DNA from: a virus
IMG/VR virus record: IMGVR_UViG_3300010885_027453
Span: 1-27,793 of that record
Strand: one strand, 5' to 3'
DNA: 27,793 nt
Shown here: in pieces, positions 2 through 14,886 of the stretch
Layout of the letters: each line of letters opens with the position of its first letter
Position numbering within the stretch: position 1 is the first letter of the stretch
Made by a program: the position numbers and the translations under genes
The notes under the pieces: model-generated
The model's database searches: none
Told to the model about the DNA's origin: nothing
Seen by the model: only the letters and a program-made list of their open reading frames with translations

Positions 2-541
2 AGCCTATACGATGTCCTCAAGGACGACGGCATCGCCTCAACCTCCACGTTAACCCCGCGCTTGACGACCCCTAAAACAATACCCATTGTGGGCGAAGTT
101 GCGGCGGGGCTTTGGCGGGAAACGATGCTGGCTAATCAGAACCCAGACGAGTTTATCGCCTTGTCGGTCGATGGATATGACCCGGCGGACCTCTATGCCC
201 TTCGCGTTTCTGGGCGCTCGATGGACTTGGTTTATCCGCCTGGGCGTTGTTTGGTCGTGGCTCCGGTTTCGCAATCGGGCCTCCGCGTCGGGGATCATGT
301 CATCGTCGAACGGACTCGCGCGGGACTTGTTGAGATTACGGTGAAAGAGCTGGTCATGGAGGGCGGCAAGGCGTGGCTCTACCCGCGCAGCTCGTCGCCA
401 GAGTTCCAGACGCCCCTCCTGATCGACGGCTCTGATCTGGATCAGGACGCCCCGCGCGTGATCGGTGTTGTCGTCGCCGATTACGTCCAGCGGCAGCGCC
501 CGACCGAGTTCTTCACCCTCCCCGCGAATCTCCAGGGCTAG
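2..541 (+). CDS. Phage repressor, S24/LexA-type self-cleaving C-terminal domain (5' truncated by window edge)
   Basis: The frame is open from base 2 and gives about 179 residues, so the N-terminal helix-turn-helix is outside the window. The visible part matches the S24 peptidase (LexA/CI) fold. It has an Ala-Gly cleavage-site candidate in GEVAAGLW (residues 35-36 of the fragment), the nucleophile in SGRSMD (Ser73) and the general-base lysine in TVKEL (Lys115). Family members repress lytic promoters and self-cleave when bound to RecA filaments, releasing the prophage. It is followed by a hairpin terminator and two candidate operators at 582-623, and is co-directional with the early operon it would control. 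A TTG at 62 could serve as an internal start, but upstream in-frame coding (SLYDVLKDDG) argues that this is only the tail of a longer protein. Confidence 0.85.
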   Translation, partial: SLYDVLKDDGIASTSTLTPRLTTPKTIPIVGEVAAGLWRETMLANQNPDEFIALSVDGYDPADLYALRVSGRSMDLVYPPGRCLVVAPVSQSGLRVGDHVIVERTRAGLVEITVKELVMEGGKAWLYPRSSSPEFQTPLLIDGSDLDQDAPRVIGVVVADYVQRQRPTEFFTLPANLQG

Positions 542-3650: not shown

Positions 3651-3844
3651 CCCGCGCCGCCAAAATCCCCCAGGCCGAGGTTCAGCGCATGATCAGGGCT
3701 GTGGAAAACGAGGGCAAACAGGTCGCCGCTGTGGATATGCACCCCGGCGGCGTTGTGCGGCTCTTGATTGGCGAGCCGTTCCGAGCCGGTGATCTGGCGC
3801 AGGAGAGCGCGGACGAATGGGATCGGCTCATCGCCGCCCAATGA
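3647..3844 (+). CDS. Hypothetical protein preceding the integrase, 65 aa
   Basis: ATG at 3647 overlaps the upstream stop and its own stop overlaps the integrase start (ATGA at 3841). The N-terminal half is helical (IPQAEVQRMIRAVENEGKQ), followed by a beta-rich part (VAAVDMHPGGVVRLLIGEP). Small proteins of this kind often stand directly before integrase genes in alphaproteobacterial prophages. A role as excisionase or recombination directionality factor is a guess from position only; no winged-helix or HTH motif is obvious. Confidence 0.65.
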   Translation: MTRAAKIPQAEVQRMIRAVENEGKQVAAVDMHPGGVVRLLIGEPFRAGDLAQESADEWDRLIAAQ

Positions 3845-4887
3845 AACCCGTGGCCTCTGTCATCTTGAAGTATCTGGTTCGGGATAGGGACCGGCACGGA
3901 AACGTGCGCCACTATTTCAGGGCGCCGGGCCGTCCGAAGGTGCGGCTGCATGGCGACCCCGGCAGCAAGGCGTTCATGGATGCCTATTCTGCCGCCCTAG
4001 AGGCGCTACAGGAGCCCACCGCCGGCGCGGGCAAGGCTCCGCGTCCCGGAACCATCTCGGCCCTCTGTGTGGCGTTCTACCAGTCCAGCGACTTCCGGCA
4101 GCTGGCCACCCACACGCGCTACACCTACCGGCAGATTCTCGACCATTTCCGCGAGGCCTACGGGACCGGCAAGGCTGGAGCCTTGTCTTCAGAGGTGATT
4201 AAGAAAATCCTCGACAAATGGGCCGACCGGCCCGCCCAGGCGAAAAACATCCTGAAAGTCCTGCGGGTGCTGTTCCGGTTCGCGGTCAGCCGGGGACTGG
4301 TCAAGTCGAACCCCGCCGCAGCGGTGCAATTCAAGGCGCCGAAAACGGAAGGATATCGCGCCTGGACGGATGCCGACATCGAGGCATTCGAGGCGCACTG
4401 GCCGGAAGGGTCACGCGCCCGGCTGGCCCTCGCCCTGCTGCTCTACACCGGCCAGAGAAGATCCGACGTGGTGAAGATGGGCCGGCAGCACCTCACGGAC
4501 GGCGCCATCCGCCTTCGCCAGCAGAAGGGCGGTGCGAGCGCGCCGCTGCTTACCCTGCCGATCCATCCGAAGCTGCGAGCCGCGCTCGACCTGTTGCCGG
4601 CTGGTCAGCTTACGTTCCTGATGACCGCCCACGGCAAGCCCATGAGCCCCTACGGCTTTTCCAACTGGTTCGCCGACTGCGCCAAGAAGGCAGGGCTCCC
4701 AGAGCATTCATCGCCCCACGGCCTGCGGAAAGCAGCCGCCAGGCGCATGGCCGAGGCCGGATGCACCACGATGGAAATAATGTCCGTGACCGGTCACCAG
4801 AGCCTGCGGGAGGTCGAACGCTACACCGCCTCGGTCAGCCAGAAACGGCTCGCGCAATCGGCCCTGGACCGTATGCAGAACGGATGA
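3841..4887 (+). CDS. int: Tyrosine recombinase integrase
   Basis: 348 residues. The N-terminal arm-binding part is followed by a SAM-like core-binding domain (residues about 70-160) and the catalytic domain. Catalytic residues are visible: Arg206 in TGQRRSDV, His293 and Arg296 in SPHGLRKA, His319 in TGHQS and the nucleophile Tyr328 in VERYT. It catalyses site-specific integration and excision of the phage genome. The ATG at 3841 is chosen for its ATGA overlap with the previous gene. The 291-bp repeat-rich gap immediately after it is the natural place for attP. No truncation is seen; length is normal for phage integrases. Confidence 0.93.
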   Translation: MKPVASVILKYLVRDRDRHGNVRHYFRAPGRPKVRLHGDPGSKAFMDAYSAALEALQEPTAGAGKAPRPGTISALCVAFYQSSDFRQLATHTRYTYRQILDHFREAYGTGKAGALSSEVIKKILDKWADRPAQAKNILKVLRVLFRFAVSRGLVKSNPAAAVQFKAPKTEGYRAWTDADIEAFEAHWPEGSRARLALALLLYTGQRRSDVVKMGRQHLTDGAIRLRQQKGGASAPLLTLPIHPKLRAALDLLPAGQLTFLMTAHGKPMSPYGFSNWFADCAKKAGLPEHSSPHGLRKAAARRMAEAGCTTMEIMSVTGHQSLREVERYTASVSQKRLAQSALDRMQNG

Positions 4888-4889
4888 CT

Positions 4890-5059
4890 GTCCCACCCGA
4901 TTGTCCCACCGAAAAAATCCCCTTGCACAGAAGGAATTTTCGAGGGGATTGGTAGGCCGGGTGGGGGTGGGGTTCCGTAGCAGAATCAACGTGGTGCGCC
5001 GTCCCACCGTGTTTTCGGACCCATTGCCCTGCTTGGGTTCCTGACGGCAGTGTCCCACC
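4890..5059 (+). repeat. Four direct copies of GTCCCACC (candidate integrase arm sites)
   Basis: Perfect 8-mers at 4890-4897, 4903-4910, 5001-5008 and 5052-5059, all in the same orientation. Copies 2-4 share a following G, and copies 1, 2 and 4 share a preceding T. Copies 1 and 2 are 13 bp apart, as tandem arm-type sites often are. Binding by the adjacent integrase is inference. Confidence 0.6.
4916..4950. repeat. 8-bp inverted repeat, possible minus-strand terminator
   Basis: AATCCCCT (4916-4923) is complementary to AGGGGATT (4943-4950), with a 19-bp loop. Read on the minus strand the stem is followed by a run of T (the A run at 4912-4917), so it could stop leftward transcription or be a protein-binding site. 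The loop is long for a classic terminator. Confidence 0.35.
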
Positions 5060-5072
5060 GACCGTCCGAAAA
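5012..5072. repeat. 9-bp inverted repeat flanking a core-like site
   Basis: TTTTCGGAC (5012-5020) is exactly complementary to GTCCGAAAA (5064-5072). Between them lies a second imperfect inverted repeat, GGACCCA (5017-5023) against TGGGTTCC (5034-5041), with a 10-bp spacer that could be a strand-exchange core. Each outer arm lies a few bases after a GTCCCACCG copy. Confidence 0.45.
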
Positions 5073-5100
5073 TAATACGCAATCCCCGCGCATTTTCCTG

Positions 5101-5128
5101 TTGCGTCATACGCAGAAACTGCTAGGTT
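5101..5128 (+). promoter_or_regulatory. Possible promoter with overlapping palindrome
   Basis: TTGCGT (5101-5106), 16 bp, then TAGGTT (5123-5128) is a moderate sigma70 match, 50 bp upstream of the gene at 5179. A 13-bp inverted repeat TGCGTCATACGCA (5102-5114) overlaps the -35, and a further direct copy of ATACGCA lies at 5075-5081, which suggests an operator. Confidence 0.35.
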
Positions 5129-5178
5129 AAGTCATCGCTTGCGGGGAATGGTTCCACGGGGCGGCAGGGAACAGACCA

Positions 5179-5517
5179 ATGACCATCGAAACCGTCCTCA
5201 TTACGTTTCAAGAGAACATCGACCGCCTCACGGCCTGCACTGACGACAGCTACATCCTGGCCTGGGACAATGGCCTTGGCGTCCGGTTTGTTGAGCCCGG
5301 CAAGCCCGTCGCTTGCTCCTTGTGGGCCGCCGACGCGATAGTCACCCAGCAACAGGCCGACAAAATGCCGGAAGACGCTTGGGCATTCACGCCCATCGTT
5401 AGAAACGGCAATGGTGAACAAGCCAAATTGGTTACTCGGCAGGCCGCTATTGCCCGCGAACTTGAAGAAGCGCGACAGCATCTGGCCTTCTTTTCCGCAA
5501 AGGCGGCGGCTCAATGA
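5179..5517 (+). CDS. Hypothetical phage protein, 112 aa
   Basis: ATG at 5179, about 8 bp after an AGGGA Shine-Dalgarno-like stretch. The N-terminal part looks beta-rich (IETVLITFQENIDRLTACTD); the C-terminal end is a helix (QAAIARELEEARQHLAFFSA). I recognise no family. It is the first gene of a three-gene operon after the attP candidate; its stop overlaps the next ATG. Function unknown. Confidence 0.65.
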   Translation: MTIETVLITFQENIDRLTACTDDSYILAWDNGLGVRFVEPGKPVACSLWAADAIVTQQQADKMPEDAWAFTPIVRNGNGEQAKLVTRQAAIARELEEARQHLAFFSAKAAAQ

Positions 5518-5693
5518 GCCGCCGAACCCTCCGGGCCACGATCCCGGCTGAACTGCTGGACAAGATTTACAAGGCCGAGGGCTGGTTGCGCGGCCCCGGC
5601 GAGGTGCGCGTCCGCCGGGCCAATGCGCTCTATGTGATTACGCGCGACAATCGGGCAGGCGTTTACGTCGCCACACCAAAGGAACCCGCATGA
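5514..5693 (+). CDS. Hypothetical phage protein, 59 aa
   Basis: ATG at 5514 overlaps the upstream stop (ATGA) and the TGA at 5691-5693 overlaps the next ATG at 5690. A basic small protein (MSRRTLRATIPAELLDKIYK at the start, then GPGEVRVRRANALYVI) that looks alpha/beta and could bind nucleic acid. No recognised family. Support rests on the unbroken frame and the overlaps at both ends. Confidence 0.6.
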   Translation: MSRRTLRATIPAELLDKIYKAEGWLRGPGEVRVRRANALYVITRDNRAGVYVATPKEPA

Positions 5694-5881
5694 CTGCCGA
5701 CGAATATCGCGCCGCCCTCAAGGCGCTGGGCCTTACCCAGGTTGGCGCCGGCAAGCTGCTGGGCGTGTCTGCCCGCACTGCCCAGACCTATGCCGCCGAG
5801 GGACCAAGCGGCCCGGCTGCGTTCGCCATCCGGCTGCTGCTGTCCATGAGCGATAAAGACCGGGCCAAGTGGCTGGCATAG
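5690..5881 (+). CDS. Small HTH DNA-binding protein
   Basis: 63 residues. LTQVGAGKLLGVSARTAQTY (residues 15-34) is a clear lambda-repressor/XRE-like helix-turn-helix, with 'GLTQ..A..LGVS.RT...' spacing. It is likely a transcription regulator, perhaps filling the Cro role missing from the main control region, or regulating the promoter at 5101-5128. It ends a three-gene operon and faces the late operon tail-to-tail, with terminator-like hairpins between. Its target is not shown by the sequence. Confidence 0.75.
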   Translation: MTADEYRAALKALGLTQVGAGKLLGVSARTAQTYAAEGPSGPAAFAIRLLLSMSDKDRAKWLA

Positions 5882-5885
5882 CAAC

Positions 5886-5911
5886 AGCCCCCCGGCGTAA
5901 ACCGAGGGGCT
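5886..5911 (+). terminator. Terminator-like hairpin between convergent operons
   Basis: AGCCCC (5886-5891) pairs with GGGGCT (5906-5911), with inner pairs CGG/CCG and a CGTAAA loop. It lies 5 bp after the HTH gene stop. The following T tract is poor (ACCTTTG), so a rho-independent role is likely but weak. Confidence 0.45.
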
Positions 5912-5923
5912 GATACCTTTGAA

Positions 5924-5950
5924 CCTATCACCGGGGCTGGATTTGATAGG
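5924..5950 (-). terminator. Inverted repeat at the end of the late operon
   Basis: CCTATCA (5924-5930) is perfectly complementary to TGATAGG (5944-5950), with a 13-bp loop, directly after the phosphoesterase stop on the minus strand. It is a candidate terminator for the late transcript; there is no T run, so it could instead stabilise the mRNA 3' end. Confidence 0.4.
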
Positions 5951-7066
5951 CTATGCCGTCTTGCCCACGTCAAAGTGCCCGCGCTTCCACGTCAGATATT
6001 CCGCCGCCTCTACCAAGTTAAAAAACGGCTTAATGAACCTGACGGGATCATGAGCATAGGCCGGGTCGATCACCGCAGCCATTGACCGCGCCCAGTTGGA
6101 TTCCTTGAACCCCTTTTCCTTGGCGTAATGGTCAAAATCTTTATAGGTCCCAACCCGGAACCCATGACAAAGCCGCGCCGGGTCGTTGTGCCAAATCGGC
6201 ATGTAGCCGCTCGTATGGCGGTGGCCGCAGGCCAGGATGTGGTCCCGGTAGTTGAAAAGGGTTTCGCGAACCAAGGCGTGCGCCGGGTTAAATTGCGAGC
6301 CACCTGGGAAGTCGTGCCGGCAGTTAACGCTAAACTCAACATCACCCGGAAGGACCACGCGCATCCTGGCGCCGACGTTTTCGTATAGGCCCGGCATTTT
6401 CTTCAGCCGGTGGATGACCTCCGACACGTCCCCTTTATGCGTGTTCCATGTGTCATGGTTTCCGCCAACCGTGACCAACCACGGCAATTCCGACAGCAGC
6501 CATTCAATCAGGGTCAGGGCCTGCCGAGACGTGACTTCTTGGTTAGCATACAGCCCCATTAGCCGGCCAACCCAGTTGTTGGTCGAATCCCCAATGTTGA
6601 CCGCCATAAAGCCGGGCGTATCCCGGCATATGGCCACATCCCGCGACAGATCACCCCAGGCGCATCCGGGGTCGTCGATGTGCGGGTCGCCAAAAAACGC
6701 AATTGCTATCGGCCCATCCACATTGACGCGCACCGTCTGGAGCTTGGTCGCCTCTGCATGTGTAGCGCGCTTGGCGTGCCGGTCCGTCAATTGAGCAATC
6801 AGCGTCTCAGCGTCTGGTTCGCCATCGTCCGGTAACGCATCTACCGTGAAAGCGGCAGACTGGCGGCGTGGCTGGAATTGGGTTTCATCGACCGTCAGGC
6901 CGTGGTTTGCCTCAGCGGATCGCAGGCGGTTTCGGATGGAGGGGATAGAGATGCCCAGCCGTCTTGCCGCTTCCGGCCAATATGATTTAATCCCCTCGCT
7001 TAGAATTTCGTGACAGACCTCAATCGTATATTCCGCCAATTCTCGCGACATGGGGGGGGCGCTCAT
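5951..7066 (-). CDS. HTH-calcineurin-like metallophosphoesterase fusion
   Basis: 371 residues from ATG 7066, chosen over the ATG at 7072 because GGAGG lies 8 bp upstream and the start overlaps the Rz1-like stop (ATGA). Residues about 28-50 (YWPEAARRLGISIPSIRNRL) form a helix-turn-helix; a linker follows. The C-terminal domain then carries the full phosphoesterase metal set: GDPHID (Asp127, His129), GD (159-160), GNHD (202-205), H251 and GHRH (281-284). Such enzymes hydrolyse phosphodiesters with two metal ions, including nucleic acid or nucleotide substrates. It is the last gene of the late operon, just after the spanins. A DNA-targeted nuclease or phosphatase is likely; substrate unknown. 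Confidence 0.82.
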   Translation of the reverse strand: MSAPPMSRELAEYTIEVCHEILSEGIKSYWPEAARRLGISIPSIRNRLRSAEANHGLTVDETQFQPRRQSAAFTVDALPDDGEPDAETLIAQLTDRHAKRATHAEATKLQTVRVNVDGPIAIAFFGDPHIDDPGCAWGDLSRDVAICRDTPGFMAVNIGDSTNNWVGRLMGLYANQEVTSRQALTLIEWLLSELPWLVTVGGNHDTWNTHKGDVSEVIHRLKKMPGLYENVGARMRVVLPGDVEFSVNCRHDFPGGSQFNPAHALVRETLFNYRDHILACGHRHTSGYMPIWHNDPARLCHGFRVGTYKDFDHYAKEKGFKESNWARSMAAVIDPAYAHDPVRFIKPFFNLVEAAEYLTWKRGHFDVGKTA

Positions 7067-7746: not shown

Positions 7747-7931
7747 TTGCCCACCGCCTTGGAGCCCACCCACACGTTGCGCGGAATCTGGGCCGGGGTC
7801 TGGACCCGAGGGCGGTATGTCTCCGCGATGCGCTCCAGCTCCGCCGCAACGTCGGTCTGGTTCAGGGTCACCCCGGCAACGCGCTGGATAGCGTCGGCCA
7901 GGATCAGGAGGGTGTCTTCCGAGGGTTTCAT
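7743..7931 (-). CDS. Hypothetical protein in lysis cassette, 62 aa
   Basis: ATG at 7931 overlaps the endolysin stop (ATGA), which is why it is preferred over an ATG six codons upstream. Soluble, mostly helical N-terminal half (TLLILADAIQRVAGV, VAAELERIAETYRP), no membrane segment or signal. No family recognised. It may modulate lysis or be a passenger. Confidence 0.6.
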   Translation of the reverse strand: MKPSEDTLLILADAIQRVAGVTLNQTDVAAELERIAETYRPRVQTPAQIPRNVWVGSKAVGK

Positions 7932-8314
7932 TTGGGGTATTTCTCCCAAGGCAACTCAAAATGAGGCCCGTCGCGGAAGGTTTTCCAATTTCCACCCCAG
8001 GTGATCGGGACGCCCTCATCCTTTGCGGCGGCGAAAACCGTCAGCGCCAGCTTGTCGTAAAGCGGCCAGTCCCATGAGACTTGACCGGCAATGACCGGCG
8101 CCAGATCGACCGCATGGCCGGTGAGGTGCCGGCTGTTCATGGTCTTGGTCGCCCCCTTGGCATAGAGGACCGTTTGCCGTTCGCGGCTCCGCAGGCCTTC
8201 GAGGACGGTGAAGTCGATGGGGCTTTCACCTATGGCCCGCTTGACGACCCTGACGAGATCGGGATGCACTCCCACCAGCCTTTCGAGGGACCGTGGGCCG
8301 AGGGCGTAACTCAT
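7928..8314 (-). CDS. Endolysin, M15-family peptidase (L-alanyl-D-glutamate type)
   Basis: 128 residues. The M15/VanY zinc site is clear: SRHLTGHAVD (SxHxxGxAxD; His63, Asp70) and DGPHFEL with His118 and the likely catalytic acid Asp115. T5-type phage endolysins of this family cut the L-Ala-D-Glu bond of peptidoglycan stem peptides. No signal peptide is visible, so release through a holin is needed; holin candidates lie directly upstream. Length is typical for these small single-domain lysins. Start overlaps the upstream stop (ATGA). Confidence 0.92.
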   Translation of the reverse strand: MSYALGPRSLERLVGVHPDLVRVVKRAIGESPIDFTVLEGLRSRERQTVLYAKGATKTMNSRHLTGHAVDLAPVIAGQVSWDWPLYDKLALTVFAAAKDEGVPITWGGNWKTFRDGPHFELPWEKYPK

Positions 8315-8643
8315 GGTTTCACCTGTGTTGTTGTGGTCGTGGTCACGGTCGGCGGCTCATCATCCCGCTCGACATCGGCCTTCACGCCGTCTTTCCCGGC
8401 GGATAGCCCCAGCTTCATCCCGGTTATGCAGACCAGGGCGACCAGCACCATGAGCGCCGCCGCGATCTGGCCCTGCCCGAGCAGATCAAGCTGCTGTTGT
8501 TGCCGGGTGACAGCCCACGGCCCGCGCCAGATGACGACCCCGTAGCCGACGAAGACTAGCGTCAGGGCCATCCCCGCGCCGATCTGCGCCCAGAACCGGA
8601 GCGACCCGGCTGCGAGCATCGCCGCCCATACGCGCCCGATCAT
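8311..8643 (-). CDS. Putative holin, two membrane segments
   Basis: 110 residues with two hydrophobic segments (about 18-40, WAQIGAGMALTLVFVGYGVV; about 60-80, IAAALMVLVALVCITGMKLG) and a charged, polar C-terminus ending in a threonine run (TVTTTTTTQVKP). Size, topology and position right before the endolysin fit a holin that opens the inner membrane. I do not recognise a specific holin family. Overlaps both neighbours by 4 nt. Confidence 0.6.
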   Translation of the reverse strand: MIGRVWAAMLAAGSLRFWAQIGAGMALTLVFVGYGVVIWRGPWAVTRQQQQLDLLGQGQIAAALMVLVALVCITGMKLGLSAGKDGVKADVERDDEPPTVTTTTTTQVKP

Positions 8644-8921
8644 GGGGGGGGGCGCCGGCGGGGTTTCTCAGGCTCGACGAAATGCCGTTCGAGCAGTTCC
8701 CGAACGTATTTCATTTGCTCCTCAAGGCGGATCAGGGCCTCCGCTGTCCGCCGGTGTTCGGCACTTTCGGATTCCGCCCGCACCTTGACCGCGACCAGAT
8801 CAGCCTGGATGGACTGGTCAGCCTTGTCGGCGGCGTTTACCCGGCCTTCAAGTCGGACCAGCCAGACAACGGCGGGGATGACGGTCGCTCCGAGGGCGAT
8901 GAGTTCGGGATTGATCTGCAT
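8640..8921 (-). CDS. Membrane-anchored coiled-coil protein near lysis genes, 93 aa
   Basis: ATG at 8921 forms TGATG with the tail-fibre stop, so this start is chosen over one five codons upstream. A hydrophobic N-terminal segment (LIALGATVIPAVVWLV) is followed by a long heptad-like helix (residues 22-80, with IRLEEQMKYVRELLERHF) and a Pro/Arg-rich end. Such proteins occur beside phage holins; it may help holin function or be a second spanin-like part. Function unproven. Confidence 0.6.
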   Translation of the reverse strand: MQINPELIALGATVIPAVVWLVRLEGRVNAADKADQSIQADLVAVKVRAESESAEHRRTAEALIRLEEQMKYVRELLERHFVEPEKPRRRPPP

Positions 8922-9862
8922 CAGAACCACACGCACCAGAGCCAGGCGATGTTGCGCGGTCGGTTCTCGCTGCTGTTCTCGGTTCCGCCGGCTGAACCCG
9001 TAGTCTGGCCCGAGCCTGTTCCGCCGGTGACGGTCTGGCCACCAGATCCGATGTCCGTTCTCGCCGATGCGTAGGTGTGTGTATGCGCCGCAAGCTGCCC
9101 GGCCTGATCCGAACCCAGCACCCGGGAGGTGTCGACTGCCCGGCTATCATCCCAGCCCCGCACGAACTCGCCGCGCATGTCCTTCAAGGTCAGGCGCTTG
9201 TTTGCCGAAAAGTCCGCCGCCGCTGAAGCGCCCCGGCTGGACGCGCCGCCCGCACTGTCGAGGATCGGAAACTCGGTGGAATCCAGGGCCCAGATAATGG
9301 CGAACAAGGCGCTGTAGAGCGCGCTGGCGTTGGTCGATCCCGATGCCGCCGAGCCGATGGTGGCCCCGTTCATCTTCAGGGCGCCGGTCGGTGGCGATGA
9401 CTTCATCGTCAGGAAGACTTCGCCGGTCCGGTTCAGCAGGGCGTTCAGGGCCGCTGCGGTCAGGTCCGTCAGGTCAGCCTGGGGCGTGAAGCCCAGCTTG
9501 TCTTCGATGGCGCCATCTGCCAGCTTGTCCGCCGTGATGGCCTCGTCGTTGATGTCCGCCGTCTCAATCCCGCCCGCGCCGGATTCCTCGTTGATCGGAT
9601 CCGCTGCAAACAGGGGCGAGCCCAGATCACCGTTCGACGCAATGATGGTCAGCCGGTAGGTGACCGCCGGGTCGAGATAGACCACCTCGGGAAAGTTCCC
9701 GTAAGCGTCCGCCACGATCGGATAGGCCAATTCCTCGGTCAGGTCGGAGTCGGCATAGACATCCGCCGGTGTCGTGGTTCCCGAGACACGGAAGTAGGCC
9801 TTGCCGCCTGCCAGTTGCACACCGGCATTCGTGAACCGCTTGCCTAGTTGATACGTTTGCAT
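8921..9862 (-). CDS. Tail fibre protein
   Basis: 313 residues. The N-terminal 90 or so residues form a beta-rich virion-attachment-like domain (YQLGKRFTNAGVQLAGGKAY), followed by a trimeric-fibre-like linker (TADINDEAITADKLADGAI). The C-terminal part is typical of collar-type fibre tips: GEFVRGWDDSRAVDTSRVLG, DQAGQLAAHTHTY and the ending NRPRNIAWLWCVWF. It likely contacts the host receptor as a trimer. It is placed far from the spike gene, between the ejection-protein block and lysis genes. No chaperone gene is seen nearby. Confidence 0.85.
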   Translation of the reverse strand: MQTYQLGKRFTNAGVQLAGGKAYFRVSGTTTPADVYADSDLTEELAYPIVADAYGNFPEVVYLDPAVTYRLTIIASNGDLGSPLFAADPINEESGAGGIETADINDEAITADKLADGAIEDKLGFTPQADLTDLTAAALNALLNRTGEVFLTMKSSPPTGALKMNGATIGSAASGSTNASALYSALFAIIWALDSTEFPILDSAGGASSRGASAAADFSANKRLTLKDMRGEFVRGWDDSRAVDTSRVLGSDQAGQLAAHTHTYASARTDIGSGGQTVTGGTGSGQTTGSAGGTENSSENRPRNIAWLWCVWF

Positions 9863-9877
9863 GTTCGGCCCTATGAT
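9848..9877 (+). promoter_or_regulatory. Promoter for the plus-strand gene at 9883 (leaderless layout)
   Basis: TTGATA (9848-9853) and TATGAT (9872-9877), each 5 of 6 to sigma70 consensus, are separated by 18 bp. The expected start point, about 7 nt after the -10, falls on or next to the ATG at 9883, giving a leaderless or nearly leaderless transcript. The region overlaps the 5' end of the opposing tail-fibre gene. Confidence 0.6.
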
Positions 9878-9882
9878 GAGGC

Positions 9883-10104
9883 ATGGAGACAGAAGGCCAA
9901 TTCCGGGTCATTGACCCAGAGACCGGGAAGCCGCGCCCGAGGGGGACGGAAGAGTGGTCGGAAGCCGAGTTTCAGGCTTGGAAGCGCCTGCCCATTTGGG
10001 AGAAGCGCAGCCTGGTCATCACGTTTCCGGCGGTTAACTGGTTCATCGTCGCCGGCAGCCTTGCGGCTATTGTGGCGAGCGGGCTTCTAGGGTCTTTGCG
10101 CTAG
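9883..10104 (+). CDS. Small membrane protein on the opposite strand (moron candidate)
   Basis: 73 residues on the plus strand inside the minus-strand late operon. It fills the 204-bp gap between the tail-fibre start and the end of the large ejection-protein gene, overlapping the latter by 38 bp. The N-terminal 45 residues are soluble and charged (with RVIDPETGKPRPRGTEEWSE); the C-terminus is one membrane segment (residues about 48-70, VITFPAVNWFIVAGSLAAIV). It has its own near-consensus promoter and a close purine stretch (GATGAGG). This is the pattern of a phage moron, such as a superinfection-exclusion or host-envelope protein expressed in the lysogen. No homolog is recognised. Confidence 0.65.
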   Translation: METEGQFRVIDPETGKPRPRGTEEWSEAEFQAWKRLPIWEKRSLVITFPAVNWFIVAGSLAAIVASGLLGSLR

Positions 10105-12784
10105 TCGATTGCGCGGCAATGGCGGCGGATATGGCCGGATCGGCGCGGAACATCAGGGCCGCCCGGCGCCCATACTGTTGTTCAAGGTAGCGGATCACGG
10201 CTTCTGTTGACTGAGGGTCAACGGCCATCCGGGTCAGTTCATCAACCGTGGCCTCATCCACCCCCACCCGGCGGAAGAACAGTTGCGCGGCGTCCATTGC
10301 GGCGCCGATAACGTCACCCCGGACCAGCTTTCCGCCAGCCACCATGCCAGACCGCATGTCGTTGAGGTTGGCGGAGTCGTCCAGGCGCGGAGCCGTCTGC
10401 GAGCCAAAGCGCGGCGCGATGTCGTTGGCGTTCTGCAAGGCCCGGTTTTCCATGGTCAGGGCGTTCTGATATTGCTGTGTCTGGTCGGGGCCGATCAGGG
10501 CGTTCAGCTTTTGCGTCGGGTTGATGCCGGTCGCCATGTCGCGCGCAAACCGAGGCGCCCCCGCCGGGGTTTTGCCCACCTGTTGCTCAATGGCCCTTGC
10601 CGCCACGTTGCGGGCCGCTTGTTGACCAGCCATGCTCAGTGACCGCACGTCTTGGGCGAACAGGCCCGGATCGGTGTTTTCCATCATGGCCGCGCCGACC
10701 GCGTTGGGCTGCGGCGCCCCTTCTGCCGCAATGGCGCGAGCGATCTGCGCCTGCTCTTCCGGGGTAAAGAGGTAGCTTGCCAGTTCCGGGTCGCGTCGGA
10801 CCAGCGTTTCCCAATTCCGGGCCAGCCGGGTGCCGTCGCCAGTCAAGCGGCTGACCACTTCGCCCCGGATGGCCCGCACCGCTTCAGGGCCGGAAAGCTG
10901 TTCGAGGCGTTGCAGGTCTCTGACCAAATCCGGTTTGCCGATGAACGACAGATCACCGCGGCCCAGGATGGCGTTGGACGCATCTTCCGGGGCCACCCAC
11001 AGCCCTGACTGGCCGCTCATCCGTCCGCCCTCGGTCAGGCTTGACACAAGGTCGTCACCCTCATAGAGCCGCCCAAATTGACGCCGGGCGGAAATGGCGT
11101 TGCGCCAGGCGTCAACGACAGCCGGATCGCCCGACACAGCCCCGCGCGTCACAAGGTCGTCGATCTGCCGATCCAGCGCCCGCACTGCCGTTCCAGCGGC
11201 CCCACGCTCCACCCCGTCGCTGCTTTGGGTTAGCTTGGTAATGCGGCTCCTTGCGTCGAACAGGTCGCGAACCGATAGCGTCTGTTGCTCGTCGAGTTTG
11301 GCCAGTTGAGCCGTCACGCGCGGAACCGCCGCCGGATCATAATCCGCCATATCCTCGCGGATGTTGGCCGCAATCTGCGGCCGCTCTCCAATCGGGATCA
11401 TGGCGCGCTGCGGGTCCAGATCGCGGGCGGCTTGATACGCCCGGTCCACAACCGCCTTGTCTCTGGTTCTTGCGGCATTGAGTTGCGCGCTGACCTGCCG
11501 TCCGCCGGCGCCGGCCGGCAAGGCACCTAGGCCGGTCGCAAGCCGATCCTGTTGGGCCGCCATGCGCGCCGCATCGTTGGCCGCGACGACTTCCTGCGGC
11601 TGCGGCGTTGCGGAGACATACCGGCGCGTTTGCTCTCCGATCCGGGCCGGCAAGTCCGTGGCCCGCCTTTCGGCAAAGGTCCGAACCTGATCCCGGCCCA
11701 GTTCCTGACCTGGCGCCCGCGCCACCTTGACCGGCTTTGATGCCGTAGCCCGGATCAGGCCGCGCCCACCTTCGTTGACCACATCCGTCAGGGTTGGGCG
11801 GATTCCGACCGCCTCAAACTCCGCCGCCGCCGCACGCATGGCCGCCGGGTCCTGCGGCGCCCGCTTCCGCAACAGGTCAATCGCCTTGTTGCCGCCTCGG
11901 GCCTGACGGATCGGGCCAGAGGCGCGAACCCCAGTCGCCACCCCGCCGACGAGACCGCCAATGCCCGCGCCGACTTGTTCGCCGGTTTGTCCGCCAATGG
12001 CCTGCCCGACTTCGCCGCCAATGGCTGATGTGACCGCCGGGACCGCCACACTGGCAATCCGCGCCGGGACCGAACCCGGCATGGCCGCGCCCGGTAGCGC
12101 CTGGCCCGCGTAACGCGCAACCTTGCCGCCAACCGTCTGGGGAACGTAGCCGCCGCCCAACTGGTTCAGGCGCCCCTGCGCCGTTGGCTGGGCCGCCGCA
12201 GCCGCAAGACGGTTCTGCGCGTCCCGGTTTCCAAACGCACCCGCCACACTGGAGGCCAGCGCCGCGCCGCCCTGCTGTATCAGATCGCTGACCTTGGGAA
12301 CGCCGGGGCCCTGCATCCGCGAGATTTGGCCGATGGGCCCAAGGCTTAGGGCCATGTCAAGAGTGCCCTGCGCGCCTTCCATGAGGCCACGACGGCCCGC
12401 TCTGCCAACGTCAGACGCCCCGCCCACCGGGACAATGGGATTGCCCGCCTTGGGGTCCGTCAGCATCCGGGGCCCGGCGTCATTGCGGCGCACGTTGCCC
12501 TGATAGTCACGGAAGAACGAACCCACCGGCAGCTTGGCGACGGCCTCGCGGTATTCTCTGGACGTAGGAGGCCCGGCCCGCGACAGGTCAGCGACTTGTC
12601 GGCCCCTGGCGTCGGCAGCCGTGGGGGCTTTGGGCTTGGCGGGCGCCGTCAGGCCCATCCGCTTGTCAAAGTCCCCGCGCGGGACATCGCTGTAGAACCT
12701 GCGATACAGCGCGTCCGCCAACTGCTTGTCGGGCACATCCGCATATTCGGGGTGCTGCTGGCGGAACTGGGCGAGGTTGCTCAT
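10067..12784 (-). CDS. Large DNA-ejection / internal virion protein (P22 gp16-like role)
   Basis: 905 residues. The N-terminus LAQFRQQHPEYADVPDKQLA is a motif common at the start of phage internal virion proteins. A glycine-zipper hydrophobic region follows at about residues 230-295 (with SAIGGEVGQAIGGQTGEQVG and GAGIGGLVGGVATG) that may insert in the membrane; the rest is long helical and charged. Proteins of this kind are packed in the head and ejected first to form a conduit through the cell envelope. It is the last of the ejection block after the gp7-like gene, in the position of P22 gp16, but sequence similarity to gp16 itself cannot be shown here. Start overlaps upstream stop (ATGA). 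Confidence 0.75.
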   Translation of the reverse strand: MSNLAQFRQQHPEYADVPDKQLADALYRRFYSDVPRGDFDKRMGLTAPAKPKAPTAADARGRQVADLSRAGPPTSREYREAVAKLPVGSFFRDYQGNVRRNDAGPRMLTDPKAGNPIVPVGGASDVGRAGRRGLMEGAQGTLDMALSLGPIGQISRMQGPGVPKVSDLIQQGGAALASSVAGAFGNRDAQNRLAAAAAQPTAQGRLNQLGGGYVPQTVGGKVARYAGQALPGAAMPGSVPARIASVAVPAVTSAIGGEVGQAIGGQTGEQVGAGIGGLVGGVATGVRASGPIRQARGGNKAIDLLRKRAPQDPAAMRAAAAEFEAVGIRPTLTDVVNEGGRGLIRATASKPVKVARAPGQELGRDQVRTFAERRATDLPARIGEQTRRYVSATPQPQEVVAANDAARMAAQQDRLATGLGALPAGAGGRQVSAQLNAARTRDKAVVDRAYQAARDLDPQRAMIPIGERPQIAANIREDMADYDPAAVPRVTAQLAKLDEQQTLSVRDLFDARSRITKLTQSSDGVERGAAGTAVRALDRQIDDLVTRGAVSGDPAVVDAWRNAISARRQFGRLYEGDDLVSSLTEGGRMSGQSGLWVAPEDASNAILGRGDLSFIGKPDLVRDLQRLEQLSGPEAVRAIRGEVVSRLTGDGTRLARNWETLVRRDPELASYLFTPEEQAQIARAIAAEGAPQPNAVGAAMMENTDPGLFAQDVRSLSMAGQQAARNVAARAIEQQVGKTPAGAPRFARDMATGINPTQKLNALIGPDQTQQYQNALTMENRALQNANDIAPRFGSQTAPRLDDSANLNDMRSGMVAGGKLVRGDVIGAAMDAAQLFFRRVGVDEATVDELTRMAVDPQSTEAVIRYLEQQYGRRAALMFRADPAISAAIAAQSTSAKTLEARSPQ

Positions 12785-13509
12785 TTGAACAGTCCTAGCG
12801 GGTCTTGTTCAGGGGTGCGGACGGGCTTGGCGGCTGCGCCCGGTTGGGATTTCGCCCGCCACGTTGGCGCATCGGGGAACGGCCTATCAGCGCCCAGCAA
12901 TTCAGCGGAGGCGTTCAGGATCATTTTCCGATTGCGCGTTTTTGTTTGAAGCGTTTTGACCGTATCCCCGCGCTCTGGAAGGTTGGCCTGAATAAAGCGC
13001 CTCGCTTCACTATCCGTCACCGCCGCGCCGGAGAAAATCGGCATTAGAGAACTTTCAAACGACTTGGTGGCTTGCAAATAATCTTGGAAGTCTTGCCCGC
13101 CCCATTTCCGGGCCGCCCAATCGTTGAGCGATCCGTTATCGCCTTTGCCCATGAGCATTGTGGCCCCCCAGTCGCGGTCATAGGGGTTTTCCACCTTGGG
13201 CGAGCCATAGCCTTCGGACCTCGCCAGCGCGCCCATTGCGTTTACAGCGGGGTCTAGGCCGAGCATCAGGCGCGACCGCGTTGCAGCGTCCGCCGTTGAT
13301 GCTGCTGGCGCAGCCTGGATTGTGGTAAATCCGCCCTTTGGACCATAGCGGCCAATCGCTCCGTTCGGCATTTGCATGGCCCCCGGCCCCCATTCAGGAG
13401 CCGGCTTAGGCCCTTGAGCCGCCGAGGCGTCCACCCATTGGGAGCCATCCCAGCGGGCGCTTTGTGCGGGGTTGTTCGGATTGGTGCGGATTTCATTGAT
13501 CTGGGGCAT
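12781..13509 (-). CDS. Putative virion/ejection protein, 242 aa
   Basis: Starts 3 nt after the stop of the preceding gene and overlaps the next by ATGA. An N-terminal low-complexity segment (IRTNPNNPAQSARWDGSQWV, the 'WDGSQWV' type tag seen in phage structural proteins) and Pro/Gly-rich stretch precede a helical domain (residues 75-205, with FESSLMPIFSGAAVTDSEAR). The C-terminus LGLFK is short and polar. Position between the gp20-like and gp16-like genes suggests an internal virion protein; no specific family is recognised. Confidence 0.65.
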   Translation of the reverse strand: MPQINEIRTNPNNPAQSARWDGSQWVDASAAQGPKPAPEWGPGAMQMPNGAIGRYGPKGGFTTIQAAPAASTADAATRSRLMLGLDPAVNAMGALARSEGYGSPKVENPYDRDWGATMLMGKGDNGSLNDWAARKWGGQDFQDYLQATKSFESSLMPIFSGAAVTDSEARRFIQANLPERGDTVKTLQTKTRNRKMILNASAELLGADRPFPDAPTWRAKSQPGAAAKPVRTPEQDPLGLFK

Positions 13510-13512
13510 GGA

Positions 13513-14235
13513 TCACCACTGAGGCTCTTCGCCGGAACCGTAGGAGCGCGCGGGAGCCGGTGCGCCGCCATTCCCGCCGGACCTCCGCTGCGGCGCAAAT
13601 GTCCGGGGCGCCGGGCCGAAGTTCGCGACCTTTACGACCGTTCCATCGGGCAAGCGTTCGTAATAGCCATCTGGCCCCTTATACAGCTTCGACGTTTCCG
13701 CCTGCGGTTCAAACAGCGTTTGCCGTTGCGTCGGGTCCGCCGCGTTGACCGCATAGGCCCCGCGTGCGCCCATGTTCAGGATTTGCCATTCGGGCTTCTG
13801 GAGTTCGCCACCCAGGCCGGTGATGAAGGTCTGCAATTCCTGATCGGTGAAGGTCGATTGACCCATCTGTTGAAGCAGCTCGTCGGGGACGCCCCGCGCC
13901 TTGAGCAGCGGAACAAGCTGGCTTTGATAGACCGCCGCCCGCTGGTCAGCCGGGACTTTCAGCAGGGACTGCCCGCCGTCAAGGATGGCCTTCAGACCCT
14001 CGCCCTGGCGCAGCTTGGCCGCATCAGCCGCCGCCTTGTCCCGCGTCTGCCCGGCCTGCATGACTTCCATGCCGTCTCCGAGCATCCCGTTCTGAAGCAG
14101 CGCGTTGGAGGCCCCGCGATAATCGCCACCGGCCAGCGCGTTCCCGGCTTGGCGTTGGGCGTATTGGTCGCGGAAGCCTTGGGCGGCGTTGTAACCGTCG
14201 CGGAAGGCGGCCAGCGGGTTGATCATCTCAGGCAT
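13513..14235 (-). CDS. Putative DNA-ejection protein (P22 gp20-position)
   Basis: 240 residues from ATG 14235 (an ATG three codons later, 14226, is also possible). The first half is helical and rich in Ala, Gln and Gly (FRDGYNAAQGFRDQYAQRQA, GASNALLQNG), as in P22-type ejection proteins; the C-terminus is a Gly/Pro/Arg-rich tail. It follows the gp7-like gene by 3 nt, the place of P22 gene 20. The role as minor head protein released with DNA is inferred from order and composition. Confidence 0.65.
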   Translation of the reverse strand: MPEMINPLAAFRDGYNAAQGFRDQYAQRQAGNALAGGDYRGASNALLQNGMLGDGMEVMQAGQTRDKAAADAAKLRQGEGLKAILDGGQSLLKVPADQRAAVYQSQLVPLLKARGVPDELLQQMGQSTFTDQELQTFITGLGGELQKPEWQILNMGARGAYAVNAADPTQRQTLFEPQAETSKLYKGPDGYYERLPDGTVVKVANFGPAPRTFAPQRRSGGNGGAPAPARSYGSGEEPQW

Positions 14236-14238
14236 GAC

Positions 14239-14886
14239 CTAGAACCCCATGTTCGGCTGAAGGCCGGATGAGCCGTAGCCCTTGAAGGCTGACGGTTGAT
14301 TGGACGAATACATCAGGGCGTTGCCTGCGATGCCCGCCACCTGACCAATGCCTTGCGCCCAGGCGTTCCCCTGATTGTAGGAACTGTTCATCTGGTTCTG
14401 CGCGTTGGTCTGGTAAATGTTGGTAGCGTTGTTGGCGTAGTTCTGCCCGGCCTGGGCGTTCTGGGCGTTGGCGTTGGATCCAAGCCCCGCGCCGCGCATC
14501 TGGCGGTCATACCAGTTGCCGAACTCCTGCGAGGCCGACCCGGCAGCGTAGTCGTTCAGGCCCTTCAGGGCCGATCCCGATTGCAGCAGGCCATTGACGG
14601 CCCGGTTCTGCGTCACCCCTTCAAGGCCCCGTGACAGCCGGAATTGATAATCCGGCGAGGCTTGGAAGTTCGCGTTCGGGTCCGACAGTTGCGCAAGGGC
14701 GTTCTGACCAAACTGCCGCCAGGGCTCCTGATCCGCGCGGGTCAGGTCGTATTGGCGTTTCTGCTCTTCGAGGGACCGGCGGGCGGCGTTGCTGGAGGCT
14801 TGGGCCGCATCCCGCGCCGCGCCGGCTTGAATCGCCGCGCCTCCGATGGCCGTGGCGCCCATGATGAGCGGGATGGCTACAGGCAT
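14239..14886 (-). CDS. P22 gp7-like DNA transfer (ejection) protein
   Basis: 215 residues. The N-terminal hydrophobic Gly/Ala segment (IPLIMGATAIGGAAIQAGAA), then a helix with EEQKRQYDLTRADQEPWRQF and the conserved-looking ALAQLSDPNANFQASPDYQF, is characteristic of the gp7-like DNA transfer family of short-tailed phages. The remainder is Asn/Gln/Gly-rich. These proteins are carried in the capsid and ejected to help DNA enter the cell. Its start overlaps the previous gene by 10 nt. Confidence 0.8.
   Translation of the reverse strand: MPVAIPLIMGATAIGGAAIQAGAARDAAQASSNAARRSLEEQKRQYDLTRADQEPWRQFGQNALAQLSDPNANFQASPDYQFRLSRGLEGVTQNRAVNGLLQSGSALKGLNDYAAGSASQEFGNWYDRQMRGAGLGSNANAQNAQAGQNYANNATNIYQTNAQNQMNSSYNQGNAWAQGIGQVAGIAGNALMYSSNQPSAFKGYGSSGLQPNMGF

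Follow-up and report, generated by a model that had tools for sequence, protein, structure and literature searches.

In phage P22, genes 20 and 16 are followed by sieA – lying on the opposite strand with its own promoter, and encoding a superinfection-exclusion protein – and then by the immunity genes and the tailspike gene. The epsilon34 genome paper treats the corresponding gap, between gene 16 and gene 9, as a moron region and counts ten types of it across sixteen genomes (PMC2629481). A superinfection-exclusion protein encoded by a moron is also described for a long-tailed phage, namely gp15 of HK97 (cited in PMC10883804).

Here, we describe a small antisense gene in the equivalent slot of a 27.8-kb virus record, where it is flanked by the last ejection gene and the tail fibre. 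The whole of this stretch was analyzed and is referred to as the window. Its early genes are on the + strand and its late genes on the - strand, running from about 27305 down to 5951. It belongs to a short-tailed phage, which is temperate judging by its tyrosine integrase. The features relevant to the locus, in window coordinates, are as follows.

62-541, + strand: S24-type repressor C-terminal domain (PHROG 4, E = 2.6e-13; Pfam PF00717 above cut-off)
3817-4887, + strand: tyrosine integrase (PHROG 1, E = 7.1e-41)
7928-8314: endolysin, near the small antisense gene
8311-8643: membrane protein of the lysis genes, near the small antisense gene
8921-9862, - strand: divergent tail-fibre gene, with its start codon and a Shine-Dalgarno-like TAGGG inside the promoter-like block; N-terminus homologous in seven distant phages and prophages
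9848-9853, + strand: -35-like hexamer TTGATA, of which TTGAT is invariant in four members
9872-9877, + strand: -10-like hexamer TATGAT, 18 bp past the -35-like hexamer and 5 bp before the ATG at 9883-9885
9883-10104, + strand: small antisense gene, a probable lysogeny-expressed moron; 73 aa, stop TAG, residues 1-39 conserved, membrane span about 52-72 variable
10067-12784, - strand: last large ejection-cluster gene, encoding 905 aa; runs towards the small gene and overlaps it by 38 bp (10067-10104)
14239-14886, - strand: DNA-ejection protein at the head of the ejection cluster (PHROG 598, E = 1.5e-29)

The 905-aa gene was assigned to the ejection cluster by its position after the DNA-ejection family member and by synteny with P22 and Pan3. 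The nearest counterpart of the portal is in Pseudanabaena phage Pam1 (48 percent identity) and the integrase resembles those on alphaproteobacterial replicons, which together make an alphaproteobacterial host likely. Just past the repressor-domain gene there is a terminator-like hairpin (581-596) followed by a promoter-like TTGACA-17-CATAGT on the + strand, the two spanning 581-632 (promoter-like part 604-632).

The open reading frame at 9883-10104 is almost certainly a real gene. As the initial annotation had described, it encodes a 73-aa protein with a single hydrophobic span (best 19-residue window 54-72, mean hydropathy 2.05), lies opposite its late-gene neighbours, and overlaps the large ejection gene convergently. 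Three relatives were found in IMG/VR: L002 (77 percent identity across all 73 residues) and L003 (71 percent, residues 1-56) by protein search, and L013 (58 percent, residues 1-62) through its neighbourhood. Loss of the frame in close relatives had been named by the initial annotation as a finding that would refute its reading; start codon, stop codon and reading frame are retained in the window and in all three. Across these four members residues 1-39 are well conserved, as FRVID.ETGKPRP.GT....EAE.Q.WKR.P.W. A basic linker comes next and then the one hydrophobic span, whose sequence varies and which has basic residues ahead of it in every member.

Codons 1-39 are under purifying selection in the four members. 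All six pairs have dN/dS between 0.06 and 0.25, differences are most numerous at third codon positions (8-22, compared with 2-6 at first and 0-6 at second), and when equal numbers of differences were placed at random, so few amino-acid changes were never obtained for any pair in 2000 trials. The GC-rich late region does yield 64 antisense open reading frames of at least 60 aa, nine of them with a hydrophobic stretch, but such strong selection in the + frame, together with a start and stop kept in four members, makes a chance frame without function extremely unlikely.

Temperate life may not extend to every member: a search of L003's 38-kb record detected neither an integrase nor an S24 repressor. 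In the record of L002 (L028) the integrase match at 12688-13686 holds one in-frame TGA, and this copy may be broken or misassembled. In a further record of 29 kb (L012), the lysis cassette at 4566-6716 follows a 385-aa tail-region gene rather than an ejection gene or tail fibre, and no moron of the 73-aa family was found.

The 73-aa protein constitutes a new small family without a name in Pfam, NCBIfam, PHROGs or PADLOC, at a kind of locus that is already known. It has no match in Pfam, NCBIfam, PHROG, PADLOC or PDB, so that the initial annotation was right in recognizing no homolog; searches of phage and plasmid records returned nothing usable, and no homology to any known exclusion protein was seen in the family libraries or in a phage collection that includes P22. 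An AlphaFold model built from the four sequences shows only helices (27-34, 38-47 and 52-71) and, with a mean pLDDT of 61, is too poor for a fold search.

The gene probably has its own leaderless promoter. The arrangement TTGATA-18-TATGAT, 5 bp before the ATG, is present as first reported, and the description of it as near-consensus suits the window, where the hexamers match at 10 of 12 positions, but not the relatives, which score lower (TTGATT or TTGATG with TATGGT). TTGAT, the 18-bp spacer and TATG(A/G)T are kept in all four members, with gaps of 5, 6, 6 and 5 bp between the -10-like hexamer and the ATG. The hexamer match alone is no better than chance, because pairs of this quality occur at chance frequency in the window (four found, about 4 expected); the weight lies in the placement exactly before the ATG and in the conservation. 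Between 9000 and 11000 this is the sole promoter-like site, where shuffled sequences give an expectation of 0.3. Homology of the window with L002 and L003 starts at the -35-like element, and the upstream block is kept although the gene to its left differs, being the tail fibre in the window and a 109-110-aa protein in L002, L003 and L013.

No Shine-Dalgarno sequence at workable spacing is common to the four members, and neither the window nor L013 has one for the + strand ATG: the window has only GAGG, one base from the ATG, L013 has no match at all, and L002 and L003 have only the overlapping GGTGA/GAGGT. In the window, any other upstream start is precluded by an in-frame TGA at 9877-9879. 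A leaderless start is the best reading because no workable Shine-Dalgarno is shared, and at the normal distance from the -10-like hexamer – which is placed as in a leaderless gene – transcription would be expected to begin on the A of the ATG or no more than one base away from it. The lambda cI mRNA made from PRM during lysogeny is a leaderless transcript. The resemblance is in a -10 element so near the ATG that transcription would begin there, and in prophage expression; cI differs in being a repressor, and the start site here is predicted from sequence alone. cI has been used as a leaderless reporter (PMC8138138), and leaderless mRNAs form a minority but real class in the Alphaproteobacteria, accounting for 7 percent in Methylorubrum (PMC9320726).

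Conservation of the block does not by itself prove a promoter, because the same bases form the start of a divergent late gene. Within the block lie the ribosome site and the start codon of the tail-fibre gene. All four members retain TAGGGC followed by ATG on the - strand; in the window this ATG begins the tail fibre, and in L002, L003 and L013 it begins a leader of 9-10 codons that is coupled to the next gene by TGATG or TAATG. The block could thus be nothing but the ribosome site and start of the divergent gene, with the + strand gene transcribed from elsewhere, but we consider this unlikely. The Shine-Dalgarno and start codon account for GCCCTA and CAT but not for TTGAT or the G.T of the -10-like hexamer, which are also kept though the divergent genes differ, and the lack of a workably spaced ribosome site for the + strand ATG in the window and L013, together with the TGA just upstream of it in the window, likewise argues against this explanation. 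It concerns the promoter and not the function of the gene, and is to be judged apart from the functional readings weighed below. Because TTGAT and G.T are left unexplained by translation signals, promoter and divergent-gene start probably share the same bases. On the divergent strand of L002 (4949-4980) and L013 (5660-5695), the leader begins at the conserved ATG, and its end shares bases with the start codon that follows, which suggests translational coupling in the late operon.

We surveyed the slot in seven distant phages and prophages, using the homologous tail-fibre N-terminus as the anchor. Pam1 and Pan3 have no annotated gene there, with 124 bp and 112 bp, respectively, separating the last ejection gene from the tail gene. 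Antisense proteins are encoded in the slots of Pam5 (45 and 128 aa), CBW1004C-Prop1 (89 and 117 aa) and Rhizobium tumorigenes (87 and 87 aa), and the 38-kb Caenibius sp. WL phage-plasmid p1 (L032) has an antisense HicB/HicA toxin-antitoxin pair (14211-14794) between its last ejection-size gene and tail gene. Together with Paracoccus versutus, these five have their slot genes on the same strand as the 73-aa gene and beside a tail fibre with homologous N-terminus; the products are mostly membrane proteins – HicBA is not – and have no recognizable similarity to the 73-aa family. The small gene is inserted between genes that are neighbours in Pam1 and Pan3, and on this point it agrees with the definition of a moron (PMC2629481). 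A terminator of its own is a usual though not universal moron feature; no terminator-like site was found on the + strand in 10104-11000, by a scan that is weak for GC-rich DNA.

Some frames in these slots are unannotated. In Pan3 (L034) a 34-aa antisense frame with a hydrophobic stretch (13135-13239) overlaps the end of the last ejection gene. The unannotated prophage of Paracoccus versutus pBEN (L036) contains a 69-aa antisense frame with two spans (33640-33849), overlapping the ejection-gene end, and a 119-aa antisense frame (33885-34244) with a lipoprotein-like start, MRAIVLALVMAVAGC.

The gene next to the last ejection gene encodes a membrane protein in four of five annotated antisense cases, P22 included. 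Among small genes elsewhere in these records the figure is 26 of 99 (p about 0.02). These counts take a hydropathy of 1.5 as the cut-off, which Pam5_14 only just exceeds with 1.53; with the usual cut-off of 1.6 the count is three of five and not significant. We regard this enrichment, from a small and partly hand-chosen sample, as a lead. Location in the slot does not alone prove an exclusion function, because the slot also holds HicBA in Caenibius and mnt, arc and ant in P22.

SieA of P22 is the closest described counterpart. The two genes have in common the slot past the last ejection gene and before the tail spike or fibre, the antisense orientation, a promoter just upstream (annotated for sieA, putative here), an inner-membrane type of product, and a temperate short-tailed phage as carrier. 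SieA is larger, at about 164 aa, and is predicted to cross the membrane three or more times, in contrast to 73 aa and one span here; it also has an ordinary leader with a Shine-Dalgarno rather than a leaderless geometry. No sequence similarity between them was detected through PHROGs, Pfam, NCBIfam, PADLOC or the phage collection including P22, and by size, span number and lack of homology the 73-aa protein is not a member of the SieA family.

We tentatively propose that the gene is a lysogeny-expressed moron and that its product, in the manner of SieA, excludes superinfecting phages by acting on ejection proteins at the inner membrane. The position, the strand, the membrane nature of the protein and the temperate context make exclusion at the ejection conduit the leading single hypothesis, although we give it somewhat less than an even chance. 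In a lysogen, host sigma-70 RNA polymerase would, judging by the spacing, initiate on the A of the ATG or on a neighbouring base and yield a leaderless mRNA for the 73-aa protein. The protein would be held in the inner membrane by its one C-terminal helix, its conserved 39-residue N-terminal part probably being cytoplasmic by the positive-inside rule. By analogy with SieA, it would there encounter the conduit that the ejection proteins of an incoming related phage form, and block the entry of DNA. During lytic growth, late transcription of the other strand would cross the promoter and shut the gene down.

This proposal refines that of the initial annotation – a moron expressed during lysogeny, such as for superinfection exclusion – which gains from the conserved antisense single-span gene, the promoter-like block and the sieA-type slot, and loses from the presence of non-exclusion genes in the slot. 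Exclusion is also weakened by the best-conserved part being predicted as cytoplasmic and not membrane or periplasmic, by the lack of homology to known exclusion proteins, by the single span where SieA has three or more, and by the failure to detect an integrase or S24 repressor in L003. It is almost as likely that the gene is a lysogeny-expressed moron of another role, in host fitness, the envelope or protection from phages that are unrelated, with ejection proteins not its target and in a slot that simply tolerates insertions. The clearly different functions housed there (HicBA; mnt, arc and ant), the ten types in the moron region of sixteen genomes (PMC2629481) and the failure of any exclusion family to match the protein agree with such a role, which fits less well with a membrane protein beside the ejection gene more often than expected (at the 1.5 threshold, in a small sample) and with SieA, the one studied case, being an exclusion protein. 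A part in the lytic cycle is improbable, whether as an antiholin-like membrane protein tuning lysis or as a transcript antisense to the ejection mRNA tuning late expression. The lysis genes are nearby, the ejection gene is overlapped by 38 bp, and with no terminator-like site seen downstream RNA could run antisense into it, but the lysis and late genes run on the other strand, late transcription would pass over the promoter of this gene, and an RNA-only role leaves the selection on the protein unexplained.

Under the proposed exclusion role, the inheritance of the membrane half is of interest. The window and L002 have in common the membrane half of the moron and the ejection C-terminus (54 percent over the last 200 residues). 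L003 shares with L002 the left flank, the promoter block and the N-terminal half, at 89 percent DNA identity, and differs from it in both the membrane half and the ejection C-terminus. This co-inheritance may be simple linkage, because the moron and ejection genes overlap by 38-50 bp. A broader and doubtful extension is that short-tailed phages with a P22-type ejection module, in Enterobacteria, Alphaproteobacteria and Cyanobacteria, have a dedicated antisense exclusion slot at the 3′ end of the last ejection gene, refilled by unrelated small membrane proteins, and that in this family exclusion specificity resides in an exchangeable membrane half inherited with its cognate ejection C-terminus. 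If exclusion is indeed the function, a 73-aa single-span protein, alongside the unrelated antisense membrane genes in this slot of other phages, would be a minimal exclusion protein and a route to testing ejection proteins as a common exclusion target, and further genes of this type could be sought on the antisense strand where they abut the end of the last ejection gene.

Several candidate relatives were set aside. The match in L005, a Chloroflexi MAG, is an acyl-CoA-ligase-like reading frame with only the FRVIDPETG stretch in common, and the promoter-pattern matches in L008 and L009 are chance occurrences inside coding sequence, where the moron is absent. The slot reading frames of L014 and L015 have marginal spans (hydropathy 1.27 and 1.24) and profile comparison probabilities of only 2.3 and 0.6 percent, and were treated as positional counterparts and not as family members. 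These two frames (L014, 3668-3850; L015, 3370-3621) are in related records and have near-identical DNA before the ATG, including a strong Shine-Dalgarno AGGAGG. The small antisense proteins that they encode are nevertheless unrelated, which looks like an exchange of the coding part behind common upstream DNA.
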